NCBI GenBank assembly: GCA_030681475.1
Contig: JAUXWT010000085.1
Location: forward strand, 68,226-115,790
Source: Bacteroidales bacterium
GTDB lineage: Bacteria; Bacteroidota; Bacteroidia; Bacteroidales; FEN-979
Reading direction: 5' to 3'
Length of the DNA stretch: 47,565 nt
Part shown: piece by piece, positions 1 to 15,880 of the stretch
Position numbering within the stretch: the first letter of the stretch is position 1
Layout: each line of letters starts with the position of its first letter
Notes under the pieces: generated by a model
Told to the model about the DNA's origin: nothing
Database searches by the model: none
Seen by the model: only the letters and a program-made list of their open reading frames with translations
Program-made: the position numbers and the translations under genes

Positions 1-611
1 GCGCCAGGGAGAATTGTTGCGGGGAAAGTGTGCGCAAGACAGGCGACGAAGAACTGTTCAGGCACCTGGCGAAAGAAAATATAAAGACCTTTATCGACAG
101 CGGCGTTAAAAGGATCCTCGTCTCTTCCCCGCATTGTTACCACACGTTTAAAAACGAGTATCCAGAATTTATGGTACACTTTGAGGTGGTCCATATCGTC
201 CAGTACCTGTCCGAGCTTATCAACAATGGAAAACTTGTGCTCAGCGGGGCGTACGCGAAAAAAGTCACGTATCACGACCCTTGTTACCTGGGCCGGCATA
301 ACGGCATCTATGATGAACCCCGGAATATATTACAGAAAGTAACCGCACTGGAACTGACCGAAATGGCTGAATCGAAGGAGGATAGCTTTTGCTGTGGCGG
401 CGGCGGCGGCAGGATCTGGATGGACACGCCAAAGGGGGAGAGATTCTCCGATCTCAGGCTGGAACAGGCCGCCGGGACCGGGGCGGAGGAGTTGGTTACC
501 TCCTGCCCGTATTGCATTGCCAATTTTGAGGACAGCTTGCTGTCCCGCAAGGATAGTGAATCCTTTAGGATAAAAGACATTACAGAAATCATTCAGGAAG
601 TGATCTCATGA
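1..611 (+). CDS. HdrD/BamD-like iron-sulfur protein, 5' truncated
   Basis: This is the C-terminal half of a CCG-domain (heterodisulfide reductase D/B type) protein. The frame is open from base 3, so the gene starts left of the window. The visible part begins with an NCCGE motif, the second half of one cysteine-rich CCG domain, followed by SPHCYHTF. A second CCG domain then follows, with HDPCYLGR, SFCCGGGGG and SCPYC. Such domains bind non-cubane [4Fe-4S] clusters and in this family carry out thiol/disulfide-type or electron-transfer chemistry. About 200 residues are visible; BamD is about 390, so roughly half is missing. It lies about 105 bp before the HdrA-like gene on the same strand. Family assignment is firm; the BamD assignment rests on gene order. 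A generic HdrD or glycolate-oxidase iron-sulfur subunit is the alternative. Confidence 0.8.
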   Translation, partial: ARENCCGESVRKTGDEELFRHLAKENIKTFIDSGVKRILVSSPHCYHTFKNEYPEFMVHFEVVHIVQYLSELINNGKLVLSGAYAKKVTYHDPCYLGRHNGIYDEPRNILQKVTALELTEMAESKEDSFCCGGGGGRIWMDTPKGERFSDLRLEQAAGTGAEELVTSCPYCIANFEDSLLSRKDSESFRIKDITEIIQEVIS

Positions 612-716
612 AAGCAAATTCCAAGTCTCGAATTTCAGGAAGGATCTCCCTTGGAGCTTGGGATTTGAGACTTGGGGTTTGGAACTTGAGACTTGGGACT
701 TAGAATTTGTAGAGAA
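612..716. repeat. Degenerate short tandem repeat in operon spacer
   Basis: The spacer between the HdrD-like and HdrA-like genes is largely imperfect copies of a motif built on GACTTGGG plus TTT, for example GAGCTTGGGATTT, GAGACTTGGGGTTT and GAGACTTGGGACTTAG, with a period of roughly 14 bp. No gene or clear ribosome binding site is seen in it. Confidence 0.6.
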
Positions 717-3700
717 ATGACGAAAGAACCATTGGAAGAACAAGTTTTACAGATCACTGCGGACAACAATTTCGGAGATGTTATTGTTGTCGGGGGGGGG
801 ATCAGCGGCATCCAGGCCGCCCTTGACCTGGCCACCACGGGCTATAAGGTGTACCTGGTTGACAAAGCCCCCACCATTGGCGGCAAGATGGCGCAGCTTG
901 ACAAGACCTTCCCCACAAATGATTGTTCCATGTGCATTGAATCTCCCAAGTTTATTGAATGTGACAGGCATCCCAACATCGAAATCCTGACCTATACCGA
1001 AGTGGTCAGTGTTGAAGGGGAAGCCGGGGACTTCACCATAACGCTGAATAAAAAGCCCAGGTACATCATCGAGAGCAAATGCACTGGCTGCACGGTTTGC
1101 GCAGAGTATTGCCCGGTCAGGATCCCAGACCCGTTCAACCAGGAATTGTCTTCGAATAAAGCGATCCATATCTTTTTTTCCCAGGCAGTACCCCTTGTGC
1201 CCTATATTGATGAAAGCTGTCATTTTCTCAGGGACGGTAAATGCACCATTTGCGTCGGCGTTTGTAAAAACAATGCAATTGATCTTCATCAGAAGCCCGA
1301 GAAGCGGGTTGTTAAAGTGGGTGCCATTGTCCTGGCTCCCGGGTACGATGTTTTTCACCCGGAGGTACGGGGCGACTACGGTTACGGGAAGTACCAGAAC
1401 GTTGTCACCAGCCTTGATTTCGAACGGTTGCTTTGCGCCACGGGCCCCCATGTGGGTGAAATTTTACGGCCGTCTGATCATAAGCACCCTAAAAAAATCG
1501 CCTGGATCCATTGTGTGGGCTCCAGGCAGACGACAGATGGAGGCAACAGCTATTGTTCATCAGTCTGCTGCACCTATATCCAGAAACAGGTGATACTGGC
1601 CAAAGACCATGACGCGGATATGCAGGCGATGATCTTTCACAACGACATACGCTCCTATGGCAAGGATTTCGAACGGTTTTATCAAAGGGCTGAAAATCTT
1701 CCCGGGGTAAAATTCATCAGAAGTTATGTAACTGTCGGCAGAGAGGTCCCCGGATCAAAAAATGTAACGATCCTCTATGCAACGACTGATGACGGCGTGA
1801 AGGAAGAAGAGTTCGACCTGGTCGTACTGGGTGTGGGACTGATCCCTCCTGCCAATGTTGAGCGCTTTGCGGAAATTTTCGGGATCGGGCTCAATGCGCA
1901 TCAGTTTTGCAACACCAATGCGGCAACACCGATACAAACCTCCAGGCCGGGCGTCTTCATCAGCGGTGCATTCCAGGGGCCTTTGGACATTCCTGAATCG
2001 GTAGTAGCGGCCAGCGGGGCGAATGCCCTCGTGGGTGAACTCTTGAAAGCCAGGCGGGGAAAACTTTCAAAGGAACGCATTTACCCGGAAGAAAGAGATG
2101 TTTCTGACGAAGAAATCAGGGTCGGAGTTTTTGCCTGTCATTGTGGTGCCAACATCGGCCGCGTGGTGGATATCCCTTCACTGGTTGATTATTCAAAGAC
2201 CCTCAGCAATGTCGTTCACGCCGAAGAGGGCCTTTTTATCTGTTCCACCGACGCCGCCCAGCAGATCTCGAATACCATCAGGGAGAAAAAGCTTAACCGG
2301 GTCATCGTTGCCGCATGCACGCCAAAAACCCATGAACCCCTGTTTCGCGACACGCTGAGGGAAGGAGGACTTAATCAGTACTTTTTCGACATGGCAAACA
2401 TCAGGGAACACTGCTCATGGGTACATTCCAAACAAAAGGAAGAAGCATCGCAGAAAGCAAAGGATATCGTGCGCATGTCTGTCGCCCGTGTTGCCCACCT
2501 GGAACCGCTGCAGGAATTTGATCTGCCGGTTAACAAGACAGCACTCGTAATTGGCGGAGGCCTTGCCGGAATGACCAGCGCCCTCAGCATCGCCAACCAG
2601 GGATTTGAGGTTCACCTGCTGGAAAAGGAGGCAAACCTCGGAGGGATGGCACTGAGAATTCCTGCCACCCTGGAAGGAATGGATGTTCAGGAATATTTGC
2701 GCGACCTGATCCGTAAGATTTATGAGCATCCGTTGGTTCATGTGTCTCACAGTGCGTCCATTACCGATGTTTCAGGTTATGTCGGGAATTTCGTCACCAC
2801 GGTGCGTTCCGAAGGAAGGACCAGGATAATAAAGCATGGTGCCGCCATCCTTGCAACCGGTGCTGTCGAATACAGGCCCGTTGAATACCTTTATGGGAAA
2901 ACCGACCGGGTGATGACCTCGGTGGAACTGGGAGAACAGATTGCGCTGAACGATAAAAAGCTCACGGATGCCCGGACCCTGGTAATGATCCAGTGTGTCG
3001 GTTGCCGGCAGGAAGACAGGAATTACTGCAGCCGTGTGTGCTGTACCCATTCCATAAAGAATGCGTTGAAGCTGAAAGATATTAATCCGGAACTTGATAT
3101 TTATATTCTCTTCAGGGATATCAGGACCTATGGATACAGTGAGGATTATTACCGTGAAGCTTCGGGCCGGGATGTTAAATTCATACGGTATGAACCGGGG
3201 AACAAACCCACGGTGGAAGCTGTAAATAATGGAGGATCAGAAATTTTACGGGTTGGTGTTTCTGACCCGGTTTTAGGCAGGGAGTTTGCCATCGATGCCG
3301 ATATAGTATCGCTGGCCGCTGCGGTTGTTTCCTCTGAAGGAACCTATGAGGCGGCACGGTTGTTCAAGGTGGCGGTGAACCAGGACGGGTTCTTCCAGGA
3401 GGCACACGTAAAATTAAGGCCCGTTGATTTTTCAGCGGAAGGCGTATATCTTTGCGGAACGGCGCACTATCCCAAACACATGTCAGAGGCCATCAGCCAG
3501 GCTTATGGTGCGGCCGGAAGAGCAATTGCCCTGCTCTCCCAGGACACCGTCACCGCTTCAGGCTCAGTGTGCGAGGTGAACCAGGATACATGCGTTTCAT
3601 GCGGCGCGTGCATATCAGTGTGCACCTACGGGGCCATTACCTTCAATGAAACAAATAAAGCAGTTGTCAATTCAGTCCTTTGCAAGGGAGACGGTTTATG

Positions 3701-3815
3701 CAATGTGGTGTGTCCCACCTCCGCAATTTCACTGAAGCACTATACCGATGAGGAATTGCTGAACCAGATCGATGCAGCCATTGACAGGAAACAGTTTGAA
3801 TTCGAAAACCGGTAA
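717..3815 (+). CDS. Double-length HdrA-like flavin iron-sulfur protein (BamE-like)
   Basis: A 1032-residue HdrA-family protein made of two HdrA-like halves. The first half has a GGGISG dinucleotide-binding motif near residue 26, the HdrA motif NDCSMC near 69, and ferredoxin-type clusters CTGCTVC-CP near 122 and GKCTICVGVC further on. The second begins near residue 470 with a second HdrA start (VFACHCGANIG), has GGGLAG near 570, and ends in two more ferredoxin-type clusters (CVSCGACISVC, GLCNVVCP). HdrA carries the FAD that bifurcates electrons. Length fits BamE (about 113 kDa) and exceeds the usual 650-residue HdrA. The ATG at 717 is preferred over an upstream TTG at 693 because the latter lies in the repeat spacer. 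MvhD follows 21 bp later. In the second half the motif equivalent to DCSxC is replaced by LRIPATLEG, so only one half has the full HdrA cysteine set. Confidence 0.85.
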   Translation: MTKEPLEEQVLQITADNNFGDVIVVGGGISGIQAALDLATTGYKVYLVDKAPTIGGKMAQLDKTFPTNDCSMCIESPKFIECDRHPNIEILTYTEVVSVEGEAGDFTITLNKKPRYIIESKCTGCTVCAEYCPVRIPDPFNQELSSNKAIHIFFSQAVPLVPYIDESCHFLRDGKCTICVGVCKNNAIDLHQKPEKRVVKVGAIVLAPGYDVFHPEVRGDYGYGKYQNVVTSLDFERLLCATGPHVGEILRPSDHKHPKKIAWIHCVGSRQTTDGGNSYCSSVCCTYIQKQVILAKDHDADMQAMIFHNDIRSYGKDFERFYQRAENLPGVKFIRSYVTVGREVPGSKNVTILYATTDDGVKEEEFDLVVLGVGLIPPANVERFAEIFGIGLNAHQFCNTNAATPIQTSRPGVFISGAFQGPLDIPESVVAASGANALVGELLKARRGKLSKERIYPEERDVSDEEIRVGVFACHCGANIGRVVDIPSLVDYSKTLSNVVHAEEGLFICSTDAAQQISNTIREKKLNRVIVAACTPKTHEPLFRDTLREGGLNQYFFDMANIREHCSWVHSKQKEEASQKAKDIVRMSVARVAHLEPLQEFDLPVNKTALVIGGGLAGMTSALSIANQGFEVHLLEKEANLGGMALRIPATLEGMDVQEYLRDLIRKIYEHPLVHVSHSASITDVSGYVGNFVTTVRSEGRTRIIKHGAAILATGAVEYRPVEYLYGKTDRVMTSVELGEQIALNDKKLTDARTLVMIQCVGCRQEDRNYCSRVCCTHSIKNALKLKDINPELDIYILFRDIRTYGYSEDYYREASGRDVKFIRYEPGNKPTVEAVNNGGSEILRVGVSDPVLGREFAIDADIVSLAAAVVSSEGTYEAARLFKVAVNQDGFFQEAHVKLRPVDFSAEGVYLCGTAHYPKHMSEAISQAYGAAGRAIALLSQDTVTASGSVCEVNQDTCVSCGACISVCTYGAITFNETNKAVVNSVLCKGDGLCNVVCPTSAISLKHYTDEELLNQIDAAIDRKQFEFENR

Positions 3816-3836
3816 GCTAAACACGAAAGGGATCAT

Positions 3837-4604
3837 ATGAGCGCAGAACATGGCTTTCAACCCAAAATAATAGGCATCATATGTAACTGGTGCTGCTACG
3901 GAGGCGCTGATCTGTGTGGTGTTTCGCGTTTTCAATACCCCCCGCATATAAGACTTATCAGGGTCATGTGTTCGGCCCGTGTTGACATGTTCCATGTCCT
4001 GAGGGCATTCTCGAACGGGCAGGACGGGGTCTTTATCGGCGGTTGCCACCTTTGCGACTGCCATTATGTTACGAATGGAAATTTCACCGCCTTCAGCATG
4101 GTGCAGGTCTTCAGGAAAATACTGAAACTCATCGGCATTTACCCTGAACGGTTGAGGATAGAATGGGTATCTGCCGGCGAGGGGATCCGTTTTGCCAATT
4201 TTATGAATGAATACAGCGAAGAGCTCCTGAAACTGGGACCGGTCGGGAAATCCGAAGGCATGGACGGTAAAACACTGGCATTAAAGCTTGAAGCGGTAAA
4301 AAAGCTCATCCCCTATATCAAGCTCGTGCTGACCCAGCGGCTGCATGTTCCGGTCATGACCGAGGAGGCGTATCACGAATTTTTCAGCAGCCGGGAATTT
4401 GACAGATTGTTTGACGAATTGATTGCTGACAAACTCGCAATAAGCCTGATCACGTCGCTTCTTCGGGAAAAGTCCCTCTCGACGGGCGAGATCGCTGATT
4501 CTTTGGGACTAAGTCCGTCAGAAGTAGCTCGGCACATGATTGGTTCGTCAAGGCAGGGATTAGTCAGGTACGATGTTAACAGTAAATGTTATAATCTTGC
4601 CTGA
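3837..4604 (+). CDS. MvhD-like iron-sulfur protein with C-terminal winged helix (BamF-like)
   Basis: Residues 10-130 form an MvhD domain, which binds a [2Fe-2S] cluster and passes electrons to HdrA. Visible cysteines are CNWCC (16, 19, 20), C45 and CHLCDC (70, 73, 75). The part after residue 140 is an added domain; residues about 190-250 (ISLITSLLREKSLS, TGEIADSLGLSPSEVARHM) read as a winged helix-turn-helix. At 255 residues it is longer than the MvhD-like protein at 13333 (162) and close to BamF (about 30 kDa). Geobacter BamF contains selenocysteine; here there is no in-frame stop and a cysteine pair follows CNW. A GAAAGGGA ribosome binding site lies just before the ATG. Confidence 0.8.
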   Translation: MSAEHGFQPKIIGIICNWCCYGGADLCGVSRFQYPPHIRLIRVMCSARVDMFHVLRAFSNGQDGVFIGGCHLCDCHYVTNGNFTAFSMVQVFRKILKLIGIYPERLRIEWVSAGEGIRFANFMNEYSEELLKLGPVGKSEGMDGKTLALKLEAVKKLIPYIKLVLTQRLHVPVMTEEAYHEFFSSREFDRLFDELIADKLAISLITSLLREKSLSTGEIADSLGLSPSEVARHMIGSSRQGLVRYDVNSKCYNLA

Positions 4605-4650
4605 GGTGATAGTGGACAGCTTCTTAACAATAATAAGTGCAATGGAACGC

Positions 4651-4683
4651 GGATAACGCAGATGAATATGATGAACACAGATA
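4651..4683. repeat. Left flanking repeat of GxxExxY cassette
   Basis: Contains AACGCAGATGA at 4654-4664 followed by AACACAGAT. The first motif is an inverted near-copy (10 of 11 bases) of TCATCAGCGTT at 5081-5091, on the far side of the GxxExxY gene. Similar ACGCAGAT/ATCAGCGT strings are, from memory, common beside GxxExxY genes. Confidence 0.5.
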
Positions 4684-5065
4684 ATTATAAACATTCTGAT
4701 ATTACTGAAATAATTATTAAAGCATTCTACAAAGTCTACAATATCTGGGATATGGTTTTTTAGAAAAAGTCTATGCGAATTCATTATTTATTGAACTTGT
4801 TGAAATGGGTTTGTTTGTTAAAAAACAGGAACAGATAAAAGTTTATTATGAAGGCAAAGAGGTGGGAGAATACTATGTAGATTTAATAGTAGAAGGATGT
4901 GTAATTGTTGAATTAAAAGCAGCAGAAAACTTGTGTGAAGAGCACGAATTTCAGTTAATCAATTATCTGAAAGCAACAGAAATTGAAGTTGGATTGTTAT
5001 TAAATTTCGGAAAGAAGCCGCAATTTAAACGCAAAGTATTTTCAAATCAGAAAAATCTTATCTGA
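4662..5065 (+). pseudogene. GxxExxY family protein, frameshifted
   Basis: The coding sequence opens at 4662 in one frame (M-N-M-M-N-T-D, then ITEIIIKAFYKVYN). It must shift frame near 4743 to continue as LGYGFLEKVYANSLF, which holds the family signature GFLEKVY (GxxExxY). It then runs to the stop at 5063, through conserved VGEYYVDLIVE, IVELKA and HEFQLINYLKA. One missing base between AAT (4740-4742) and CTG (4745) explains the break; without the shift the first frame stops at 4761. The family is about 125 residues, which the joined frames match. The function of the family is poorly known; a nuclease-like fold has been suggested. It is AT-richer than its neighbours and splits the redox operon, so it looks like an insertion. 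An assembly error in the single base cannot be excluded. Confidence 0.75.
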
Positions 5066-5070
5066 TCATA

Positions 5071-5093
5071 ATAATCAGCGTCATCAGCGTTCT
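5071..5093. repeat. Right flanking repeat of GxxExxY cassette
   Basis: ATCAGCG followed by TCATCAGCGTT, starting six bases after the GxxExxY stop. The second copy (5081-5091) is the inverted partner of the motif at 4654-4664. Confidence 0.5.
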
Positions 5094-5136
5094 GTTTTTG
5101 ACTGTTGAGTAGTACCGAAGGAAAAGAGTTAAAAAA

Positions 5137-5595
5137 ATGACCATAGATATTGACAGAATCGATCAGATAATAGATATGCATCAGTGCGAAGCTAGTTCAC
5201 TTATCCAGGTATTGCTGGAGATACAGGGCGAAAATCATTGGCTCCCGAAGGAGGCACTGGACAGGGTCAGCGAAAAATTACAGGTTCCCCTGAGCCGGAC
5301 AATGCATATCGCCAGCTTTTATAAAGCTTTCAGCCTGGTGCCCAAAGGACGTCATGAGGTTCACATTTGCATGGGGACCGCGTGTCATGTCCGCGGCGCA
5401 AAACGCATCCTCGAAACAGTGGAGGACCTCACCGGCATTAAACCCGGCGAAACGGATGCAGATATGAAGTTCAGCCTTGAAACCGTTAACTGCCTTGGAT
5501 GCTGCGCGTTGGGCCCGGTGATGGAAATCAACGGGAAAGCTCACGGGAAGATTTCGGTAAGCGAAACTGCCGCAGTGTTGGAGCGTTATGAATAA
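5137..5595 (+). CDS. NuoE-like [2Fe-2S] thioredoxin-fold subunit (BamG-like)
   Basis: A 152-residue NuoE/HoxE-type subunit. The four cluster cysteines follow the NuoE spacing: CMGTAC (78 and 83) and CLGCC (119 and 122/123). It has the usual N-terminal helical part with SRTMHIASFYKAF. In complex I-like and bifurcating enzymes NuoE docks on NuoF and holds a [2Fe-2S] cluster off the FMN. GGAAAAGAG lies before the ATG. The NuoF-like gene follows after 21 bp. Size fits BamG (17 kDa). The fold call is firm; assignment to a Bam-like complex is by context. Confidence 0.88.
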   Translation: MTIDIDRIDQIIDMHQCEASSLIQVLLEIQGENHWLPKEALDRVSEKLQVPLSRTMHIASFYKAFSLVPKGRHEVHICMGTACHVRGAKRILETVEDLTGIKPGETDADMKFSLETVNCLGCCALGPVMEINGKAHGKISVSETAAVLERYE

Positions 5596-5616
5596 ACAAA
5601 AACAGAAGAGCGAATT

Positions 5617-7536
5617 ATGAAGTTAAATACTCCCGGAGAGGTAGAGAAATTCAGACAGGATATCATATCCCGAAGAGACCCCGGCAAGTCCCGTATTTCA
5701 ATATGTGCTGGCGCCGGTTGTCTTGCTTCCGGGGCAGGGGAAGTCATCGCCACGTTTAAATCAGAGATCGAAAAACAATCCATCAATGCTGAGGTTGATA
5801 TAAAAGGAACGGGATGTCCCGGATTTTGCGAGCGGGGGCCGATCGTGGTGATTTACCCCCGGGAGATATGCTACCTTCAGGTAATGCCAAACGATGTTCC
5901 GGAAATCGTATCTCAGACAATTAAGGAGGGGCAGGTTATAGAACGTCTGATATATGCCGATCCTGCCACGGGCGAAAAAGCAATCCATGAATACGACATC
6001 CCCTTTTATAGAAACCAGGAGCGGAAAATTCTATGCAATAACATTAAAATTGATTCCAAAAGTATCGATGACTACCTGGCCATCGGGGGTTACGCTGCAT
6101 TGACAAAAGTTCTTTCCGGGATGAACTCCGGGGAAGTGGTAGAGGAAGTTAAAAGATCCGGCCTGAGAGGAAGGGGAGGCGCCGGCTTCCCCACAGGGAT
6201 AAAGTGGGAGGGCTCGCGAAATGACCCTGAGAAAACAAAATATGTGATCGTAAATGCCGATGAGGGGGATCCCGGGGCATTTATGGACAGGGCCCTCCTT
6301 GAAGGGAATCCGCATTCGATCCTCGAGGGTTTGATCATCGGGGGTTATGCCATCGGCGCAAGCGAGGGCTATTTTTATGTGCGGCAGGAATACCCCCTTG
6401 CCGTAGTGAATATTACCCTCGCGATCAGGCAGGCTGCTGAGTATGGGCTGCTCGGAAAAAACATCCTTGGCTCCGGGTTCGATTTTGAAGTTAAGGTGCA
6501 CCAGGGAGCCGGCGCTTTTGTTTGCGGTGAATCGACCGCGCTGATGACCGCATTGGAAGGGCGGGTCGGAGAGCCAAGGCCGAAGTATGTCCGTTCCAAC
6601 ATCAAGGGCCTTTGGGATAAACCCACCGTGCTGAACAACGTCGAAACCTGGGCAAACGTGCCGCATATCATCAACAATGGAGCCGGGTGGTTTACCCGGA
6701 CAGGAACTGGTGGAAGCAAGGGAACAAAGATTTTCTCCCTGGTGGGTAAAATTACAAATACCGGGCTTGTGGAAATCCCGATGGGCATTACCCTGAAAGA
6801 CATTATTTACAAGATTGGCGGCGGAATCCCGGGTGGCAGAAAATTCAAGGCAGTGCAGACAGGAGGACCGTCAGGAGGGTGCATTCCCGAAGAGCAGCTC
6901 AATCTGAAGGTGGGGTTTGACGAACTCACAAAGGCCGGCTCCATGATGGGCTCCGGGGGGATGATTGTCATGGATGAAGATACCTGCATGGTCGATGTGG
7001 CCAGATACTTCATCAACTTCCTAACCGAAGAATCATGCGGAAAATGCGTTCCCTGCCGTGAAGGGCTGAGGCAGATGCACAGGATCCTCACGAATATCAC
7101 TGAGGGAAAGGGAAAAGAGGGCGACATCGCCCTCCTGGAAGTGCTGTCCGAGACGGCCATGGAAGCCTCCCTCTGCGCCCTTGGCAAGAGCGCCCCTAAC
7201 CCTTTCCTGAGCACCCTGCGCTATTTCAGGGATGAATACGAGGCGCACATACGGGAAAAAAAGTGCCCCGCCCTCTACTGCAAGGAGCTGATCAGCTATT
7301 ATATTGAACCGGATAAGTGCCGGGCATGTATGATCTGCCTCAAAAAATGCACGTATGGTGCGATTGACGGTGACAGGAAAAAGATACATGTGATCGACCA
7401 GGAGAAATGCACCAATTGCGGCACCTGCTTTGAAGTCTGCCCGGCCCGGTTTGGCGCGGTCAGGAAGATCTCCGGCGAACCGCTGCCTGTTCCTGTAGCT
7501 GAAGAAGAAAGAATGATAACCGGCAAGAACGACTAA
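5617..7536 (+). CDS. NuoF-like NADH-binding FMN subunit (BamH-like)
   Basis: A 639-residue NuoF/HndC-type protein. In order: an N-terminal thioredoxin-like [2Fe-2S] domain (C30, C35, C67, C71), the FMN/NADH site GLRGRGGAGFPTG (182-194) and NADEGDPGAF, an SLBB region, and the NuoF [4Fe-4S] motif SCGKCVPC with C474, C477, C480 and the distant C520. A C-terminal double ferredoxin follows (C568-571-574-578 and C598-601-604-608). Extra N- and C-terminal domains are typical of bifurcating hydrogenase and BamH-type subunits rather than respiratory NuoF. It oxidises or reduces NAD(H) and passes electrons through the clusters. Size fits BamH (about 70 kDa). The next gene starts one base after the stop, indicating translational coupling. 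Confidence 0.92.
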   Translation: MKLNTPGEVEKFRQDIISRRDPGKSRISICAGAGCLASGAGEVIATFKSEIEKQSINAEVDIKGTGCPGFCERGPIVVIYPREICYLQVMPNDVPEIVSQTIKEGQVIERLIYADPATGEKAIHEYDIPFYRNQERKILCNNIKIDSKSIDDYLAIGGYAALTKVLSGMNSGEVVEEVKRSGLRGRGGAGFPTGIKWEGSRNDPEKTKYVIVNADEGDPGAFMDRALLEGNPHSILEGLIIGGYAIGASEGYFYVRQEYPLAVVNITLAIRQAAEYGLLGKNILGSGFDFEVKVHQGAGAFVCGESTALMTALEGRVGEPRPKYVRSNIKGLWDKPTVLNNVETWANVPHIINNGAGWFTRTGTGGSKGTKIFSLVGKITNTGLVEIPMGITLKDIIYKIGGGIPGGRKFKAVQTGGPSGGCIPEEQLNLKVGFDELTKAGSMMGSGGMIVMDEDTCMVDVARYFINFLTEESCGKCVPCREGLRQMHRILTNITEGKGKEGDIALLEVLSETAMEASLCALGKSAPNPFLSTLRYFRDEYEAHIREKKCPALYCKELISYYIEPDKCRACMICLKKCTYGAIDGDRKKIHVIDQEKCTNCGTCFEVCPARFGAVRKISGEPLPVPVAEEERMITGKND

Positions 7537-7537
7537 A

Positions 7538-8152
7538 ATGAATGAGATCCGAATACAGATAGATGGAAAAGAGGTCAGGGTAGGTGAAGGGATGACCGTT
7601 CTCGAGGGCGCCCAAAGCGCGGGAATAACCATTCCTAAACTCTGTCATCACGATAAATTAGTGCCTTTTGGAGGTTGCCGGCTTTGCATCGTTGAAGTTG
7701 GTAACGGCGTTTCAGCTAAGCTCGTCGTTTCCTGCGTTTACCCGGTTGAAGAAAACCTTGTTGTAAGGACCAGGTCTGAGAAAATTGACAGGATCCGCAA
7801 AACGATCCTCGAACTGCTGCTTGCTCATGCTCCCAATTCCCCTGAATTGCAGGTTTTGGCACGGGAGTACGGAGCGGATAAAGATCGTTTTGAAAAAGAG
7901 GCCTCATTCTGCATTCATTGCGGGCTGTGTGTCCGTTATTGTAACGAGGTGAAGAAGCTGAACGCAGTTGGATTTGTTGACAGGGGAATAAGGAAGGAAA
8001 TAGCTTTCATTCCGGGGATAGCTGCCAGGGAGTGCAAAAACTGCATGGAATGTTTTCCACTCTGCCCCACCTCCTATTTACAGGCGGCTTTCGTTTTAAT
8101 TGAAGCCCTCGCATTCTCCACAACTTCTTCCGGAACCGCATCAACGGAATAG
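7538..8152 (+). CDS. Short NuoG/HoxU-like iron-sulfur subunit (BamI-like)
   Basis: A 204-residue protein with an N-terminal [2Fe-2S] ferredoxin fold (C36, C47, C50, C66) followed by two [4Fe-4S] motifs, CIHCGLCVRYC (125-135) and CKNCMECFPLC (166-176). The middle region, where NuoG has a His-Cys cluster motif, reads LLLAHAPNSPELQ and lacks its cysteines, so that cluster is probably absent. There is no molybdopterin domain, as in HoxU and BamI (about 24 kDa). The tail after residue 180 is short and has no cysteines. It likely links the NuoEF module to HdrA. It begins one base after the NuoF-like stop. Confidence 0.85.
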   Translation: MNEIRIQIDGKEVRVGEGMTVLEGAQSAGITIPKLCHHDKLVPFGGCRLCIVEVGNGVSAKLVVSCVYPVEENLVVRTRSEKIDRIRKTILELLLAHAPNSPELQVLAREYGADKDRFEKEASFCIHCGLCVRYCNEVKKLNAVGFVDRGIRKEIAFIPGIAARECKNCMECFPLCPTSYLQAAFVLIEALAFSTTSSGTASTE

Positions 8153-8181: not shown

Positions 8182-8745
8182 ATGATCGTAAAATCAAATA
8201 TTCTGATAATTGGATCCACAGGCAGAAATACAGGGAAAACAGAATTTGCCTGCAGAATAATTGAAAAACAGGCAGTCCGGAAAGAAATAATCGGGGTAAA
8301 AGTAATACCCGTAGATAAGAATGAATCAGATTGTCATAGAGGATTGGAGGGATGCGGGTTGTGCAATTCTTTAACCGGGGATTATGAAATTATAAAAGAA
8401 AAGGCAAAGGATACGCCTAAAGACACCTCGAGAATGCTGAAAGCCGGCGCTAAAAAAGCCTACCTGCTGCTGGTCGACAGAAATTCGCTGGAAAAAGGGA
8501 TCAATGCTGTTTTAAGAATATTGCCGGACGACGTGTTGATTGTTATAGAATCTAATTCCATCAGAAAGGTCATAAAACCGGGATTGTTTATTGTAATCAA
8601 TGAATTTACCAATGTTTCGGTGAAACGTACTTGTGCTGAAGTCATAGAATTTGCAGATAAAGTCATTGAATTTGGTGACATAAGTTGGAATTTCGATCCC
8701 GACAAAGTTTTAATACAGGACGAAGGTTGGATAATTAAGGAATAA
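8182..8745 (+). CDS. MobB-like P-loop NTPase
   Basis: A 187-residue protein with a Walker A motif GSTGRNTGKT at residues 11-20. A cysteine cluster, DCHRGLEGCGLC, follows near residue 50, then a KDTSRMLKAGAKKAYLLLVD segment near 77-96 that resembles the D-T-x-R-x-x-x-A-G-A motif of MobB. IVIESNS is the expected second hydrophobic strand. MobB binds GTP and helps attach nucleotide to molybdopterin. The gene starts 29 bp after the BamI-like gene with no terminator between them, so it is probably co-transcribed. BamB-type enzymes carry a tungsten-pterin cofactor, so a cofactor-maturation role would fit but is inference. The cysteine cluster is not typical of MobB, and another SIMIBI-class NTPase is possible. 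Confidence 0.55.
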   Translation: MIVKSNILIIGSTGRNTGKTEFACRIIEKQAVRKEIIGVKVIPVDKNESDCHRGLEGCGLCNSLTGDYEIIKEKAKDTPKDTSRMLKAGAKKAYLLLVDRNSLEKGINAVLRILPDDVLIVIESNSIRKVIKPGLFIVINEFTNVSVKRTCAEVIEFADKVIEFGDISWNFDPDKVLIQDEGWIIKE

Positions 8746-9831: not shown

Positions 9832-10401
9832 ATGATATCACTTGGATCTCAGGGGAAAAACACATTTATGGAGGCCGTGAATATCAAAAGCGGAGCCAAT
9901 GTGCTGGAATGTTATCAATGCGGCAAGTGTGTGAGCACATGTCCGGTATCTCAATACATGGATTTTCCGCCCCGTGAGATCATGCAGATGATCAAGCTGG
10001 GGCTGAGGAATGAGTGCTATATGGCCAATTCGCATTGGTTTTGCCTTACCTGTTCGGCTTGTTCCGGCCGCTGTCCGCGCGAAATAGATATCCCGGCGGT
10101 GATGGAGGCAATCCGCCACCTGGCCATCGAAGAAAACTATGTCAACGATTCCAAAAAGGTCAGGGAGATTCGTAAATTCCATGAGATCTTCCTAGAGATG
10201 ATCAAACGGTATGGCCGCAATTATGAACTCCGGATGATGGCCGAGTTCAATATCCGTACACGAAACCTCTTCAAAGACGTTCACCTTGCCCCCAAGGCGC
10301 TTCTCAAAGGCAAAATTCCCCTGGGCGTCAAGCCGCTTAAAAGCGCCAAAGCCATCAAGCGCATGTACGCGATGGCCGAAAAACTCGAAAAGAAAAAATA
10401 A
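9832..10401 (+). CDS. hdrC: HdrC-like ferredoxin subunit
   Basis: A 189-residue HdrC family protein with two [4Fe-4S] motifs, CYQCGKCVSTCP (C27-30-33-37) and CLTCSACSGRCP (C71-74-77-81). A basic helical C-terminal tail follows. HdrC carries electrons from HdrA to the HdrB active site in the soluble HdrABC complex. It is the first gene of the hdrCBA-flxDCBA run, with hdrB starting 11 bp after its stop, and it has a promoter element upstream. Confidence 0.93.
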   Translation: MISLGSQGKNTFMEAVNIKSGANVLECYQCGKCVSTCPVSQYMDFPPREIMQMIKLGLRNECYMANSHWFCLTCSACSGRCPREIDIPAVMEAIRHLAIEENYVNDSKKVREIRKFHEIFLEMIKRYGRNYELRMMAEFNIRTRNLFKDVHLAPKALLKGKIPLGVKPLKSAKAIKRMYAMAEKLEKKK

Positions 10402-10412
10402 TCTGACCCAAG

Positions 10413-11360
10413 ATGAAGAAATTAACCTATTTCCCGGGTTGTTCTGCACATGGCACCAGCGAGGAATTTGACAGTACCCTCAAACTGGCGCTCAAAACAC
10501 TGGATGTGGAGCTGGAAGACATTCCCGACTGGAATTGCTGCGGCGCCACCTCTGCCCATGTGATGACTGAGAACCTGGCTTACGCACTTCCTATGAGAAA
10601 CCTGGTGCTGGCCGAAAAACTGGAAAATACAACCATGGGGATCGCCTGCGCATCCTGCTACCAGCGGATGAAGGTGACCAAGGTCCACATGGACGAAAAC
10701 CCGGAGTTGGCTAAACGGATCAACACAACGGTTGTTGAAGAGGGAACCTACCAGGGAACGGTGGATGTAAAATCGATGCTGCAGTATTTTTATGAAGATA
10801 TCGGGGTGGAACCCATCCGGGAAAAGGTAACCAAATCCCTTGCCGGGTTAAAGGTTGCCTGTTATTATGGTTGTTTACTTACCAGGCCTAAAAACATCAC
10901 CAAATTCGATTCGCCGGAGTATCCGGTTTCCATGGACCAGATTTGTGAAGCGCTTGGCGCCACCGCCACCGAATTTGATTATAAGACCGAATGCTGCGGC
11001 GCCTCCTTCTCCATCTCCAATACCGAAGTAGTACTGAACCTAAGCGGCCAGATCCTTGAGATGGCCAAAGAGAGCGGGGCCCATGCCATCGTGGTAGCCT
11101 GCCCGCTGTGCCAGTCGAACCTCGACATGCGCCAACCTGACATTGAAAAGCAACTGGGCGTGAAATATGACATCCCGATTTTTTACATCACCCAACTCAT
11201 GGCGCTTGCCTTCGGTTACCCTGCCAGTCAGTTGAAGTTCCCCAAACACATCGTTCCGGTTGAAGGAGCTTTAGCCAACATCGGGAAAATCGATCCTGAG
11301 GCGGAGAAAAAAATTAAAAAACCCATCAAAGCTGTTGAAGCAGAAAGCGAGGTTGAATAA
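10413..11360 (+). CDS. hdrB: HdrB-like non-cubane cluster subunit
   Basis: A 315-residue protein with two CCG domains. The first has C10, C42-C43 and ACASC near 79-82; the second has ACYYGC, ECCGAS and ACPLC. These hold the two non-cubane [4Fe-4S] clusters that reduce disulfides (CoM-S-S-CoB in methanogens). In bacteria the natural disulfide is not settled; in Desulfovibrio the matching operon was linked to ethanol metabolism. The last base of the stop codon is the first base of the hdrA ATG (TAATG). Confidence 0.93.
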   Translation: MKKLTYFPGCSAHGTSEEFDSTLKLALKTLDVELEDIPDWNCCGATSAHVMTENLAYALPMRNLVLAEKLENTTMGIACASCYQRMKVTKVHMDENPELAKRINTTVVEEGTYQGTVDVKSMLQYFYEDIGVEPIREKVTKSLAGLKVACYYGCLLTRPKNITKFDSPEYPVSMDQICEALGATATEFDYKTECCGASFSISNTEVVLNLSGQILEMAKESGAHAIVVACPLCQSNLDMRQPDIEKQLGVKYDIPIFYITQLMALAFGYPASQLKFPKHIVPVEGALANIGKIDPEAEKKIKKPIKAVEAESEVE

Positions 11361-13333
11361 TGGCAAGAGTAGGAGTTTTCGTATGTTTTTGCGGCGCCAA
11401 CATTGCCGAATATCTTGATGTTCCTCAGGTTGTTGAAGAGGTAAAACGCATCAGGGAGGTCAAGTATGCCGTCGATTATAAGTACATGTGTTCAGACCCG
11501 GGACAGGGGTTGATCCGTGATGCCATCGTGCAGCACAAGCTCACCTCCATCGTGGTGGCAGCCTGTTCGCCGCGCATGCATGAAAAGACCTTCCGAAAGG
11601 CATTATCCGATGCAGGGATGAATCCATATCTGCTTGAGGTTGCCAACATTCGCGAACATTCCTCCTGGGTGCACCAGAAAAATAAAAAGGCAGCCACGGA
11701 TAAAGCAATGGACCTTTGCCGGATGGCGGTGGCCAAATCAATTGCCAATGAACAACTTCATGAAATTTCGGTTCCGGTAACCAAGCGCGCCCTCGTGATC
11801 GGTGGCGGGATTGCCGGTATCCAGGCAGCGCTCGACATTGCCGATGCGCGCATTCCGGTGGTGCTTGTTGAAAAAAGTCCATCCATTGGCGGAAAAATGG
11901 CACAACTTGATGAGACCTTCCCCACGCTCGACTGCTCACAGTGTATTCTCACCCCAAAAATGGTGGATGTGGCCTCCCATCCTTATATTGAGCTCATTCC
12001 ATATGCCGAAGTGATTGAATTGCAAGGGTTTGTCGGCAACTATAAGGCCAAGATCAAAAAGAAAGCATCCTACGTTAATTTCAAGACCTGTACCGGATGT
12101 GGCGCCTGCTGGCAGAAATGCCCCGTGAAGGTCGCCAACGAGTACAACCTTGGACTTGATAAACGAAAAGCCATCTATACCCCCTTTCCGCAGGCGGTGC
12201 CTAACAAACCCGTTATTGATGCCGAACATTGCACCATGCTGTTAAAAGGCAAATGCGGTATTTGTGCCAAGGTATGTCAGCCGGGTGCGATCGACTACCA
12301 GATGCAGGACGAGGTCATTGAACGGGAAATAGGAGCGGTGGTTGTGGCAACAGGTTATGACATGTGGGATCCCACACCCTATGAAGAATATGGCGTGGGA
12401 CGCTTTAAAGACATCATCACTTCGCTGGAATTTGAACGGATGGTGTCGGCCAACGGCCCCACCAACGGTGTTCCTTTGCGTCCGTCGGATGGAAAAGTGC
12501 CGAAAAATGTTGTCTTTATCAAATGCATCGGTTCGCGTGATGAAGCCAAGGGCATTGAATACTGCTCGAAGATTTGTTGTATGTACACCACCAAGCATAC
12601 CATCCTGCTTCACCATAAGGTCCACGATTCACACGCTTATGTCTTTTACATGGATATCCGTGCAGCAGGGAAGGGGTATGAAGAGTTTGTCAAGAAAGCC
12701 CAGACCGACACTGCGGCGACATATCTCCGCGGACGTGTTTCAAAGATCTATAAAAAGGGGGACAAACTGATGGTCCGTGGCGAAGATGCCCAGATCGGTC
12801 AGGTTGTGGAGGTGGAAGCCGACCTTGTTGTATTGGCAACTGCCGTCAGCGCTCCGAAAGATAATCCTGATCTTGCCCGTTTGCTGGGGATATCGTACGA
12901 TAAATATGGATACTTGTCGGAGGCGCACCCCAAACTCCGGCCGGTCGAAACAGCCAAAGCGGGTATATTCCTGGCTGGCTGCACCCAGGCGCCCAAGGAT
13001 ATTCCCGAAACTGTGTCGCAGGCTTCGGCTTGTGCCGCCAAGGTTTGCGGCCTCTTTGCCGGCGACACGATGAAAAAGGATCCTATGGTCTCAACCATCA
13101 ACATCGAGTATTGCTCGGGTTGCCTCAACTGTATCAACGTTTGTCCGTACACCGCCATTGTAACAGATGAGGTTCCCATCGGACACGGGTCAAAAGAATT
13201 GCGCACCGTGGCATATATCAACGAAGGCGTATGCCAGGGTTGCGGTTCATGTGTTGCGATCTGTCGCAGTATGGCCATCAACCTGGCCGGCTTTACCGAT
13301 CCTCAAATCATTAACGAGATAGTTTCAATCTAA
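11360..13333 (+). CDS. hdrA: HdrA flavin-based electron-bifurcating subunit
   Basis: A 657-residue, standard-length HdrA. Order of parts: the N-terminal HdrA domain VFVCFCGANI with C44; FAD-binding GGGIAG (148-153); the conserved DCSQC (C192, C195); ferredoxin motifs C244-247-250-254 and C291/299-302-306; and a C-terminal double ferredoxin (CSGCLNCINVC, CQGCGSCVAIC). The FAD splits electron pairs between ferredoxin and the disulfide site on HdrB. It overlaps hdrB and flxD by one base each, so the three are translationally coupled. It resembles the N-terminal-domain-plus-FAD portion of the double-length protein at 717-3815, so the two are distant paralogs. Confidence 0.94.
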   Translation: MARVGVFVCFCGANIAEYLDVPQVVEEVKRIREVKYAVDYKYMCSDPGQGLIRDAIVQHKLTSIVVAACSPRMHEKTFRKALSDAGMNPYLLEVANIREHSSWVHQKNKKAATDKAMDLCRMAVAKSIANEQLHEISVPVTKRALVIGGGIAGIQAALDIADARIPVVLVEKSPSIGGKMAQLDETFPTLDCSQCILTPKMVDVASHPYIELIPYAEVIELQGFVGNYKAKIKKKASYVNFKTCTGCGACWQKCPVKVANEYNLGLDKRKAIYTPFPQAVPNKPVIDAEHCTMLLKGKCGICAKVCQPGAIDYQMQDEVIEREIGAVVVATGYDMWDPTPYEEYGVGRFKDIITSLEFERMVSANGPTNGVPLRPSDGKVPKNVVFIKCIGSRDEAKGIEYCSKICCMYTTKHTILLHHKVHDSHAYVFYMDIRAAGKGYEEFVKKAQTDTAATYLRGRVSKIYKKGDKLMVRGEDAQIGQVVEVEADLVVLATAVSAPKDNPDLARLLGISYDKYGYLSEAHPKLRPVETAKAGIFLAGCTQAPKDIPETVSQASACAAKVCGLFAGDTMKKDPMVSTINIEYCSGCLNCINVCPYTAIVTDEVPIGHGSKELRTVAYINEGVCQGCGSCVAICRSMAINLAGFTDPQIINEIVSI

Positions 13334-13821
13334 TGGAAGCAGAAGTAAAAGATCAACTCGTAAGCATTGAAAAGCCTGAATTGATTGCCCCTCCCGATTG
13401 GGAACCGGTGATCATGGGCATTCTGTGCAACTGGTGTTCCTATGCCGGATCGGACCTCACCGGGACTTCACGGATACAGTATCCGCCCAACATCCGCATC
13501 ATCCGGGTGCCCTGTTCTTCACGCGTTGATCCGTGGTTCCTGATCAAATCGTTGCAGACCACAGCCGATGGCGTGCTGGTCTCGGGATGCCATCCGGGCG
13601 ACTGCCATTACATCAGCGGGAATTATTATGCCCGCCGCCGCTTCCTGGTGACCAAGAAACTGCTGAATTTCGTGGGATTTCACGAAAACAGGATCCAGTT
13701 TTCCTGGGTTTCGGCAGCCGAAGGCCCCAAATTCGCAAAGGTGGTGATCAAGGTGACCGATGACATCAAGAAGCTCGGGCCACTCCATTTGTATAAAAAA
13801 GAAAATTTCGAAAAGAAATGA
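13333..13821 (+). CDS. flxD: FlxD / MvhD-like [2Fe-2S] electron-transfer protein
   Basis: A 162-residue MvhD family protein with cluster cysteines in CNWCSYAG (C32, C35), C61, and CHPGDC (C86, C91). It mediates electron transfer between the NADH-oxidising FlxA/B/C part and HdrA. Unlike the MvhD-like protein at 3837 it has no helix-turn-helix extension, and the position after CNWC is serine instead of cysteine. It overlaps hdrA by one base and flxC by four (ATGA). Confidence 0.92.
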   Translation: MEAEVKDQLVSIEKPELIAPPDWEPVIMGILCNWCSYAGSDLTGTSRIQYPPNIRIIRVPCSSRVDPWFLIKSLQTTADGVLVSGCHPGDCHYISGNYYARRRFLVTKKLLNFVGFHENRIQFSWVSAAEGPKFAKVVIKVTDDIKKLGPLHLYKKENFEKK

Positions 13822-14678
13822 ACTACACGAAACAGATCCAGGATATAGCAGCGAAGCTGTTTGCCGAAGGAAAGATCGACGTGTTTGTTGGTTACCGTGT
13901 GAATGGTTTCGACGACAACCAGGTTCCGGCGCTGATTACCGATCCGCAGGATGTTCCCAAACTGGTATTCACCGACAAATCGGTTTTTAACCTGGTGAAC
14001 TACCTGAAAAGCGAGCACACCCGCAGAAAACGCGTGGGACTGGTGGTGAAGGGTTGCGACAGCCGTTCGCTGAACCTGATGCTGACCGAAAGCCAGGTGA
14101 AAAGGGAAAACCTCTATGTGATTGGTATCTGCTGTGAAGGCGTTGTGGATGAAACCGGGCAGAAAATGCAGAATTGTGTGGAGTGTGCGGTCCCCGATGC
14201 CGTGGTCAGCGATGAGTTGTTGGGAACACCTATGTCAGGGTCTCTGACCCTGACATACCGGGTAAACGCGGATATTGCAAAGCTCAGCGAAATGCCGCTT
14301 ACCGAGCGTGCTGCCTATTTTGAAGAGGTATTCGAAAACTGCATCCGCTGCAATGCCTGCCGCCATTCATGCCCGCTGTGTTACTGCGCCAAATGCTGTA
14401 TCGACCAGGAAACCGCCACCCTGTATAACGGTGCAAATACCACATCCAGCGCTTTCCATGCGCTGATGACCTGGTCGCTTCACCTGGCGGGCCGCTGTGT
14501 CGATTGCCGCAATTGTGAAAAAGCCTGTCCCAGCCATCTGCCGTTGCATTTGCTGCATAAACAGAATGAAAGTGTGATCTATGAGAACTTCCAGGAACAC
14601 CTGGCCGGGGTGATCCCAGAAGACCGCGGTGCATTCTACAAATACAGTCTGAAAGATCCCGATGATTTTATCATGTAA
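13818..14678 (+). CDS. flxC: FlxC-like iron-sulfur protein
   Basis: A 286-residue protein of the family adjoining FlxD in FlxABCD-HdrABC clusters. The first 150 residues hold a conserved GLVVKGCDSRSLN and VIGICCEGV region, like FrhB-type proteins. Two [4Fe-4S] motifs follow, CIRCNACRHSC and CVDCRNCEKAC, with extra cysteines in CPLCYCAKCC. It probably relays electrons inside the complex. Residues encoded by 14229-14261 (PMSGSLTLTYR) come from an in-frame perfect hairpin repeat and may be an insertion. The stop is 14 bp before the flxB ATG. Confidence 0.8.
   Translation: MNYTKQIQDIAAKLFAEGKIDVFVGYRVNGFDDNQVPALITDPQDVPKLVFTDKSVFNLVNYLKSEHTRRKRVGLVVKGCDSRSLNLMLTESQVKRENLYVIGICCEGVVDETGQKMQNCVECAVPDAVVSDELLGTPMSGSLTLTYRVNADIAKLSEMPLTERAAYFEEVFENCIRCNACRHSCPLCYCAKCCIDQETATLYNGANTTSSAFHALMTWSLHLAGRCVDCRNCEKACPSHLPLHLLHKQNESVIYENFQEHLAGVIPEDRGAFYKYSLKDPDDFIM
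14231..14257. repeat. Perfect REP-like hairpin inside flxC
   Basis: TATGTCAGGGTC, a three-base loop TCT, then GACCCTGACATA: a perfect 12-bp stem. It is 27 bp long, a multiple of three, and lies in frame in flxC. The GTCAGGGTC/GACCCTGAC core looks like an interspersed palindromic element and not like protein-driven sequence. Confidence 0.75.
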
Positions 14679-14691
14679 TCCGATTCAACTT

Positions 14692-15771
14692 ATGAGTTTT
14701 TCAACATTTGTTACCGATAAACCAGGACTGCAGAAGTTTTACGAAGCCGTATTGGCCAGTCACGAAACGTATGCCCCGGCAGAGAAATTCGGCAAATTTG
14801 ATTTTAAATTGGTATCCCGTATTTCGGAATGTGATCCCGAATCGCCCATTGCAAAGACCCAGAGCATCAAACCGTTGTTCTTCCCGCGATCGGCAAAGGT
14901 GATGAAATACGTTGCAACCAGCGCCGGAACGGATGTTTCAGAGGTGGATGAAGATCCGCTGGCCGTAAAACGAATTATAATTGGCGCGAAACATTGCGAT
15001 GCCCGCAGCCTGCAGGTTCTCGATAAAGTGTACAACTGGGACTACATCGACACCGATTACCAGAAACGCCGTGAAAACACTGTAATCATCTCCACCCGTT
15101 GCGACAAGGCCGATACCCATTGCTTCTGCACCTCGCTCGATTATGATGTGGAGAACCTCGATGCCATGGATGTGCTGGTTGTGAATGGAGCCGAAGGGAA
15201 AATTTACCTCAGGGCGAGAACAGAAAAAGGAGAAACTTTTTTAAAGGAGAATTTCAGTCAGCAGTTAGCAGTCGGCAGTGAGCAGTCGGAAGTTGGCAGT
15301 CGGCATTCGGCGGAGGAAGAGATGAAGAAGCAGTACGCTGCCTTTGCAGAATCTTTCCGCCTGAAGATGAATTACAAAGAGGTTAATGAAAGACTTTCAA
15401 AGATCTTTGATACGCCCGAATTTGAAAAAGTATCGGCCAACTGTGTGAGCTGCAATACCTGTGCGTTTATTTGTCCGACATGTCACTGTTTCAAGATCTC
15501 CGACGAAAAGGTAAAGGACACCGGATTGCGTTACAAGAGCTATGACTCCTGTAACAACGGTTATTTTACCCTGATGGCCGGCGGCCACAATCCGCGCCCG
15601 GCAAAGTATCGCCGTTGGCGGCAGCGTGCCATGCACAAATTTGTTTACTACAAGGAACGTTTTGGCGAAAACCTCTGTGTGGGATGCGGAAAATGCACCA
15701 TCGCATGCCCGGTGAACATCAGTATTTTTGAAGTCGTTAACCAGGTTGCCTCTGCGGGAATTCAGGAATGA
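14692..15771 (+). CDS. flxB: FlxB-like iron-sulfur protein
   Basis: A 359-residue 4Fe-4S dicluster protein related to the beta subunits of sulfhydrogenase/anaerobic sulfite reductase A. It has conserved KRIIIGAKHCDARSLQVLDK and YQKRRENTVIIST in the first half. The C-terminal half has ferredoxin motifs CVSCNTCAFICPTCHC and CVGCGKCTIACP, with the YDSCNNGYFTLMAGGHNPRP segment between them. In FlxABCD it connects FlxA to the other iron-sulfur subunits. The ATG at 14692 is preferred over 14662, which would overlap flxC by 17 bases. An in-frame tandem repeat (15255-15310) adds a Ser/Gln/Gly-rich stretch around residues 188-206 that looks like a linker insertion. Confidence 0.85.
   Translation: MSFSTFVTDKPGLQKFYEAVLASHETYAPAEKFGKFDFKLVSRISECDPESPIAKTQSIKPLFFPRSAKVMKYVATSAGTDVSEVDEDPLAVKRIIIGAKHCDARSLQVLDKVYNWDYIDTDYQKRRENTVIISTRCDKADTHCFCTSLDYDVENLDAMDVLVVNGAEGKIYLRARTEKGETFLKENFSQQLAVGSEQSEVGSRHSAEEEMKKQYAAFAESFRLKMNYKEVNERLSKIFDTPEFEKVSANCVSCNTCAFICPTCHCFKISDEKVKDTGLRYKSYDSCNNGYFTLMAGGHNPRPAKYRRWRQRAMHKFVYYKERFGENLCVGCGKCTIACPVNISIFEVVNQVASAGIQE
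15255..15310 (+). repeat. Eight 7-bp tandem repeats inside flxB
   Basis: Consecutive heptamers CAGTCAG, CAGTTAG, CAGTCGG, CAGTGAG, CAGTCGG, AAGTTGG, CAGTCGG and CATTCGG. They are translated as part of flxB without breaking the frame. Confidence 0.85.
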
Positions 15772-15816
15772 AAACAATGCAAACAATGCAGGCAATGCAA
15801 ACAATGCAAGCAATGA
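15772..15816. repeat. Five 9-bp tandem repeats in flxB-flxA spacer
   Basis: AAACAATGC, AAACAATGC, AGGCAATGC, AAACAATGC and AAGCAATGA follow the flxB stop codon directly. No gene is seen in the 109-bp spacer. Confidence 0.85.
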
Positions 15817-15844
15817 ATTCATTTTACTAAGAAGTAAATTTCGC

Positions 15845-15876: not shown

Positions 15877-15880
15877 TTAT

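Follow-up and report, generated by a model that had tools for sequence, protein, structure and literature searches.

Class II and class I benzoyl-CoA reductase gene sets at one locus of a Bacteroidales genome

The stretch of DNA analyzed here (the window; 47,565 nucleotides) corresponds to C44:68226-115790, the right-hand end of the 115,790-base contig C44 (JAUXWT010000085.1) in the Bacteroidales bacterium assembly GCA_030681475.1 (source genome G000: 4.24 Mb, completeness 98.67%, contamination 0.48%). It opens inside a gene set that, completed by extension to the left, reads bamBCDEFGHI and is assigned, close to certainty, to a class II (tungsten-containing, ATP-independent) benzoyl-CoA reductase, here in a Bacteroidota genome; a complete set for the unrelated, ATP-dependent class I reductase (Bcr type), bcrCBAD, diverges from bamB across a gap of about 300 bp (302 bp). 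The class II genes and two accompanying open reading frames (ORFs) are arranged as follows (lengths in amino acids, aa).

C44:65071-67104, plus strand: bamB, left of the window edge
C44:67094-67645, plus strand: bamC, polyferredoxin, directly after bamB
C44:67667-68836, plus strand: bamD, 389 aa, its 3' part being window 3-611; CCG and Fer4 domains
window 693-3815, plus strand: bamE, double HdrA-like flavoprotein with FAD/ferredoxin HdrA-type repeats, 1040 aa from TTG or 1032 aa from ATG
window 3837-4604, plus strand: bamF, 255 aa, MvhD/FlpD domain and C-terminal winged-helix-like extension
window 4805-5065, plus strand: PDDEXK_3-like ORF, 86 aa, between bamF and bamG, matching the C-terminal part of PDDEXK_3 only; probably not part of the Bam complex
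window 5137-5595, plus strand: bamG, 152 aa, NuoE-like, 2Fe-2S thioredoxin-like domain
window 5617-7536, plus strand: bamH, 639 aa, NuoF-like FMN/NADH subunit; Complex1_51K, NADH_4Fe-4S and C-terminal 2x[4Fe-4S] (two Fer4) domains
window 7538-8152, plus strand: bamI, 204 aa, short NuoG-like, Fer2_4
window 8182-8745, plus strand: P-loop protein directly after bamI, no Pfam or NCBIfam match; a 75% identical counterpart follows bamI in locus L008

The ORFs named in the preliminary description of the window (HdrD-like, double HdrA, MvhD, NuoE, NuoF and short NuoG) are all present on the plus strand in that order and with those lengths, and their Pfam domains fit; the "HdrD-like" gene is real but proved to be the 389-aa BamD, cut by the window edge. 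Its equation of this order with BamD to BamI is borne out: the complete bamB-I order recurs, with 52-92% identity, in 33 of the 80 best BamB loci, which were kept from 564 stretches with a BamB relative among 84,980 species genomes scanned (L designates a scanned locus or stretch, G a genome, g a genus); many of the remaining loci are cut by a contig or stretch end. BamB aligned over its full length with Geobacter metallireducens BamB (PDB 4z3w_A; 1256.9 bits, the runner-up being an aldehyde ferredoxin oxidoreductase with 212.8 bits) at 518 of 651 identical positions (79.6%, counted from the alignment), BamC over its full length with 4z3w_E (256.2 bits), and BamD is 62-83% identical to the BamD adjoining BamB in other loci. 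All five active-site residues checked in BamB are kept (E251, H255, E257, H260, C322); the roles of the BamB residues, including the tungsten-ligating Cys322, are given in the available part of PMC12096430. Compared with G. metallireducens BamBCDEFGHI (PDB 4z3w-4z40), the same eight genes occur in the same order, whereas the Bacteroidota host, the extra 86-aa ORF, the class I reductase on the opposite side and an ADP-forming acyl-CoA synthetase in the locus are deviating features.

The subunit types of this set are common to Hdr and hydrogenase complexes, and another Hdr-Flox-like cluster lies next door, as would be expected of a bifurcating module of the general Hdr/hydrogenase type whose acceptor is unknown. 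This explanation is refuted by BamB and BamC directly upstream and by the tree of BamE, which groups with the Bam proteins and apart from the genome's own HdrA proteins (Shimodaira-Hasegawa-like approximate likelihood ratio test, SH-aLRT, 100), and retains practically no probability. BamH also grouped with Bam and apart from the genome's own NuoF-like proteins, with a support of only 85, long outgroup branches and a program warning. The trees thus agree with the Bam-type class II identity proposed in the preliminary description, as do BamB, BamC and the rest of BamD found upstream. The adjoining class I reductase, not visible in the window, turns its alternative of aromatic degradation or an unknown acceptor into the richer question of which reductase serves the genome. 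Its statement that such complexes are mainly a feature of Deltaproteobacteria-type anaerobes broadly holds, although the titles of the best 80 BamB loci also include Chloroflexi/Dehalococcoidia, Acidobacteria, Spirochaetes and Bacteroidetes (Bacteroidetes/Bacteroidales: L009, L019, L025, L027, L035, L044; L025 and L027 are near-copies).

Among these 80 loci, 13 showed bamB-F with no bamG-H-I matched after them, eight of them in stretches of about 22 kb (L013, L015, L028, L036, L049, L056, L063, L072) and the others in shorter ones; these eight may represent a form of class II with its NADH module located elsewhere or of a different kind. A 973-residue open frame is inserted between bamB and bamC of Bacteroidetes NC_groundwater_1592 (G542; L009:6850-9768) and a 635-residue open frame between bamH and bamI on the same contig (L189).

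The class I genes were evaluated with the NCBIfam models TIGR02259-TIGR02263 (Thauera model).

C44:63575-64768, minus strand: bcrC, 457.7 bits (cut-off 421.15)
C44:62269-63552, minus strand: bcrB, 641.1 bits (cut-off 486.55)
C44:60827-62200, minus strand: bcrA, 425.3 bits (cut-off 578, under)
C44:60005-60823, minus strand: bcrD, 323.2 bits (cut-off 312.85)

As in the Thauera-model Bcr, bcrC, bcrB, bcrA and bcrD are four adjacent genes, and BcrB, BcrC and BcrD exceed their cut-offs; unlike it, BcrA stays below, and the Bacteroidota class I sequences form a deep clade of their own. Since three other Bacteroidota BcrA tested also remained under 578 (438.9, 441.2, 419.8; one Desulfuromonadales BcrA reached 695.2), the Bacteroidota BcrA appears to be a diverged subgroup and not a damaged copy. 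As judged from the sequence, the class I set represents a Bacteroidota branch within the Bcr type instead of the textbook Bcr. The nearest solved structures of BcrB and BcrC were those of 3-methylbenzoyl-CoA reductase MbdO/MbdN (197.0 and 196.3 bits); hydroxyacyl-CoA dehydratase and BzdO/BzdN scored lower. C88, C123 and C366 of BcrB align with the BzdO cluster cysteines C95, C128 and C380; a glutamate is present in the region of the acid/base Glu65 of BzdO, and a phenylalanine occupies the BzdO His131 position, the same as in MbdO. Each ATPase subunit has kept two activase cysteines in what we take to be the bridging-cluster motif (BcrA: RCAAG and ICSTCTVF; BcrD: QCASG and ICSVLAE). Ten matches in plasmid records (22-25% identity) were rejected as class I relatives, not being Bcr, and in G738 an inserted BRO-N domain ORF (L175:9510-10364) separates bcrD from the acyl-CoA synthetase gene.

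The leftward extension also contains dienoyl-CoA hydratase- and hydrolase-type genes, named in the preliminary description as genes to look for, and dehydrogenase-type genes; they form a backbone that directly follows bcrD.

C44:57918-59999, minus strand: ADP-forming acyl-CoA synthetase, after bcrD
C44:56928-57887, minus strand: ApbA-like dehydrogenase, after the synthetase
C44:55830-56891, minus strand: had, over the NCBIfam cut-off
C44:54551-55642, minus strand: oah (ring opening), over the NCBIfam cut-off
C44:53765-54538, minus strand: dch, 213.7 bits (NCBIfam cut-off 292.5, under)
C44:52334-53587, minus strand: HgdB2, lone HadB-like protein, no HadC partner seen
C44:51476-52279, minus strand: Act2, activase beside HgdB2

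The distribution of the two classes was followed through the relatives of G000. Among 149 relatives examined, strong BamB matches occurred in five genomes, G000 included: the other four are G422, G428 and G431, all from a second genus (g174) of the family, and G475 from the same order; no match above 76 bits was found in the 18 congeners. Class I, detected as TIGR02260 (BcrB) over the NCBIfam cut-off, was searched in 43 relatives (the 18 congeners, 24 other family members and G475) and found in nine: the congeners G396, G406, G407 and G409 and the family members G416, G423, G427, G430 and G432. The 42 other family genomes accordingly comprise nine with class I, three with BamB and none with both; no BamB was present in the nine class I relatives, and no class I in the BamB relatives searched. 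In eight of the nine, the order is bcrC-bcrB-bcrA-bcrD-acyl-CoA synthetase-ApbA-had-oah-dch, then HgdB2 where the stretch reaches that far (the contig of the ninth ends in bcrA), and in G422, G428 and G431 bamB diverges directly from this backbone, bcr being absent from the position between them. In the order sample (393 genomes; BamB threshold E <= 1e-100; two draws with the same handles, taken as one), class I was detected in nine genomes, BamB in six and both only in G000; in the phylum sample (395 genomes), class I was restricted to G000, G059 and G294, the latter two without BamB. Genus g318 includes one genome with class I (G680) and one with class II (G898), in which bamI stands directly before the acyl-CoA synthetase gene. 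Exceptions are G505 and G763 (bcr and synthetase, then an acyl-CoA dehydrogenase in place of had/oah/dch) and G665 (bam without the backbone in its 18.9-kb stretch); the stretches of G682 and G773, which end near bamD/bamC, contain no backbone. Since four of the 80 genomes behind the best BamB loci possess both classes (BcrB over cut-off), co-occurrence is uncommon, not unique.

G542 (L009, Bacteroidetes NC_groundwater_1592): on separate contigs
G598 (L059, Geobacteraceae)
G590 (L048, Desulfuromonadales)
G613 (L078, Deltaproteobacteria Dive100_bin10.46): bcrCBAD 3.9 kb behind bamI, one contig

In a tree of seven backbone proteins (20 rows; G294 with 40% of the columns), the five class II genomes were placed at three positions among 14 class I genomes, and well-supported branches force at least three changes between class I and class II. 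In this tree G898 pairs with G680 as its sister (end branches 0.02), and the two share 88.7% DNA identity along 7.3 kb that end where the synthetase gene begins; from there G898 runs into bamI and G680 into bcrD. Between G000 and the class I congener G406 the match ends 12 bases short of the bcrC start codon, and the homology of G000 with the class II genome G428 stops at 11778 (synthetase start) and resumes at 16841, 5 bases before the bamB ATG: the segment missing in G428 relative to G000 is exactly bcrD-bcrC. Because relatives carry either class and the class has changed so repeatedly, the reductase behaves, by these comparisons, like an interchangeable unit set into an otherwise conserved benzoyl-CoA locus; G000 holds both classes.

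The concatenated class I tree placed G000 within its family, next to the congener G406 (85/96), and the Bacteroidota clade apart from three Desulfuromonadales/Deltaproteobacteria-labelled sequences; on account of this nesting, class I seems to have been handed down within the family. That bam joined the locus later is what we infer, as counts of changes on an unrooted tree do not tell a gain from a loss, and bam may have been lost from the congeners. In the eight-gene tree (quick method, LG+G4), all ten Bacteroidota or Bacteroidota-like rows, including the window's Bam and L008, whose contig is labelled Deltaproteobacteria, fell into one clade (SH-aLRT 100), in agreement with a smaller, careful bam tree (100/100). 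The BamB single-gene tree (14 rows, several being duplicates of one genome left unlabelled) scattered the Bacteroidota with eight changes, conflicts with the eight-gene tree and was rejected for deducing the origin of bam. Since BamB of G000 is nearest to L008/L009 and its BamH to L025/L019, the bam operon may be a mosaic; the approximately unbiased test rejected G000, G422 and G428 as one bam clade (p 0.022), but on a tree with most forks inside its Bacteroidota clade open.

Joining of bam and bcr by an assembly or binning error would be compatible with a junction known from a single assembly, and with the higher G+C content of bamB-D (52.3%) compared with bcr (47.7%). It is nevertheless very improbable: both sets lie on one long contig of a nearly complete genome with little contamination, nuo genes are located to their left and proteins sorted by the type IX secretion system (T9SS) to their right on this contig, relatives have a counterpart of each half of the junction, and bam and bcr both carry a Bacteroidota phylogenetic signal.

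Of particular interest is the use of both reductases, a use which we infer. Both gene sets are fully open reading frames, and the ratio of nonsynonymous to synonymous differences per site (pN/pS) ranged from 0.04 to 0.15 among the bcr genes (8 comparisons, against two class I relatives) and from 0.08 to 0.22 among the bam genes (20 comparisons); on these values, both sets look alive and under purifying selection. The bcrC-bamB gap contains one TTG-N-TAnnTTTG and three TAnnTTTG sites (shuffle means 0.069 and 0.466), patterns which we take to be a promoter consensus; the rightward promoter-like core recurs in G428, not in G422. This is only a hint that divergent promoter-like sites face both sets. 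The rule of one class per genome in the family and in the order sample, together with the repeated class changes on the backbone, would also fit a locus in mid-replacement, in which bam has arrived and one set is about to be lost, with no physiological switching. Given the open frames and pairwise pN/pS well below 1, the (weak) signal of divergent promoter-like sites and the four other BamB genomes that keep both, one of them with bcr closely behind bamI, this explanation is considered rather unlikely.

Co-occurrence of both classes in one genome is already known. According to the available part of PMC4148979, Desulfotomaculum gibsoniae combines bam with a class I-family (Bzd-type) set that is not one transcriptional unit, and it is unclear there which of the sets serves benzoyl-CoA and/or 3-hydroxybenzoyl-CoA; in strain NaphS2, bam is accompanied by a Bzd-like/naphthoyl-type set, induced on naphthalene, that serves naphthoyl-CoA beside Bam (PMC2988823, available part). 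In contrast to both, the class I genes of G000 are of the Bcr type, form one cluster and adjoin bam. Dive100_bin10.46 (L078/L183) resembles G000 in having bam and bcrCBAD on one contig and differs in their location on the same strand, the two ORFs between them and the class I genes being only 45-60% identical. The precedents would be in line with a division of substrates, with Bam acting on benzoyl-CoA and Bcr on a ring with a substituent, such as 3-hydroxy-, methyl- or halobenzoyl-CoA, or with the roles exchanged, as would the 4-hydroxybenzoyl-CoA-reductase-like set in the locus, whose large protein of the xanthine dehydrogenase family is nearest to the alpha subunit of that enzyme (TIGR03194: 948.4, just under the cut-off of 994.55). 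However, one dch, had and oah backbone follows either class in the single-class relatives, as if both classes fed one intermediate, and BcrB is far over the benzoyl-CoA reductase B cut-off; substrate division is therefore judged unlikely.

It is rather regarded as probable that an inherited class I set has been joined by bam and that both would be usable alternatively, depending on energy and tungsten. In the available parts of two reviews (PMC12096430, PMC11971306), class I is tied to facultative and class II to strict anaerobes, a split explained by ATP yield and metal availability; the benzoyl-CoA/dienoyl-CoA potential is near -622 mV, class I costs one ATP per electron, and class II is assumed to split ferredoxin electrons by bifurcation, the high-potential acceptor being NAD+ or menaquinone. 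Based on these mechanisms and on the divergent promoter-like sites, two separately controlled routes to one product, with one Dch/Had/Oah set, are proposed: An aromatic acid would be activated to benzoyl-CoA, and Bam or Bcr would then convert the ring to the 1,5-dienoyl-CoA, Bam with the tungsten cofactor of BamB, flavin-based bifurcation of ferredoxin electrons and NAD+ as the other electron acceptor through BamGHI, Bcr with the BcrAD ATPase driving electrons from ferredoxin into BcrBC; the shared dch/had/oah set would carry out the subsequent hydration, oxidation and hydrolytic ring opening. Bam would be used when energy is short, saving ATP, and the ATP-driven, irreversible Bcr when the ATP supply permits it or little tungsten is available.

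Several observations weigh against alternative use: the two-reductase junction is known from one assembly, BcrA misses its equivalog cut-off and Dch its NCBIfam cut-off, BamB alone does not keep the Bacteroidota together, and pairwise pN/pS is blind to very recent decay, its synonymous sites being near saturation (infinite in 4 comparisons). A wider formulation, in which an order-wide swappable dearomatization cassette has had its classes replaced repeatedly with gene-precise edges and both are kept here as a divergent-promoter energy/metal switch, is advanced tentatively, as a possibility well worth entertaining. No description of a Bacteroidota benzoyl-CoA reductase locus was recognized in the literature searched, with subscription papers mostly outside it; with this locus, the anaerobic breakdown of aromatics reaches a Bacteroidota group that lacks such a report in that literature. 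Relatives differing only in the reductase module, e.g. G680 and G898 with their nearly identical backbones, represent a natural experiment that bears on the ATP-yield and metal explanation of the two classes, and in a species possessing both, the conditions under which a cell spends ATP or turns to bifurcation could become directly visible.

The following genes complete the surroundings of the locus.

C44:50153-51421, minus strand: thiolase, beta-oxidation-type; a 3-hydroxyacyl-CoA dehydrogenase-type gene is next on the left
C44:46448-47626, minus strand: acyl-CoA dehydrogenase, beta-oxidation-type
C44:45509-46432 and C44:42679-45486, minus strand: xanthine-dehydrogenase-family genes, left of the acyl-CoA dehydrogenase
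window 9832-16714, plus strand: Hdr-Flox-like cluster, hdrC-hdrB-hdrA-mvhD and FrhB/4Fe-4S-, Fer4_22- and NAD/FAD-reductase-type genes

The FAD partner of the 4-hydroxybenzoyl-CoA-reductase-like protein is nearer to XdhB (216.2) than to the beta subunit of 4-hydroxybenzoyl-CoA reductase (131.9). The nuo genes and TonB/ExbD-type genes lie left of the xanthine-dehydrogenase-family genes; the T9SS-type C-terminal sorting sequences of the proteins right of the window's Hdr clusters were recognized by eye. The Hdr-Flox-like cluster is a possible ferredoxin/NADH partner of the reductases, perhaps giving reduced ferredoxin from NADH.

No gene of the genome exceeded the benzoate-CoA ligase cut-off (best 259.6 versus 375.25), and the slot of the ADP-forming synthetase holds an AMP-binding ligase in G059, G294 and G502; benzoate activation by an ADP-forming aryl-CoA synthetase is therefore plausible and, if true, saves an ATP equivalent. 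HgdB2 and Act2 belong to the benzoyl-CoA backbone whichever reductase class the Bacteroidota genome carries, with about 75-89% identity within the family; a second, HgdB2-like TIGR02260 match was not seen in the class I genomes G505 and G763, and no known pathway step requires HgdB2. Its assignment as a double-cubane protein was rejected (NF040772: 45.9 bits, cut-off 350); it is nearer to HadB (224.7, also under the cut-off of 750). A second bifurcation-type island of the genome (L007, G000:C64:1-20000), read by eye from its ORFs, contains several HdrA-like proteins, a QmoC-like membrane protein, MvhD and a [NiFe] hydrogenase pair with a maturation protease, followed further on by a large FeFe-hydrogenase-type fusion and NuoE/NuoF-type genes.

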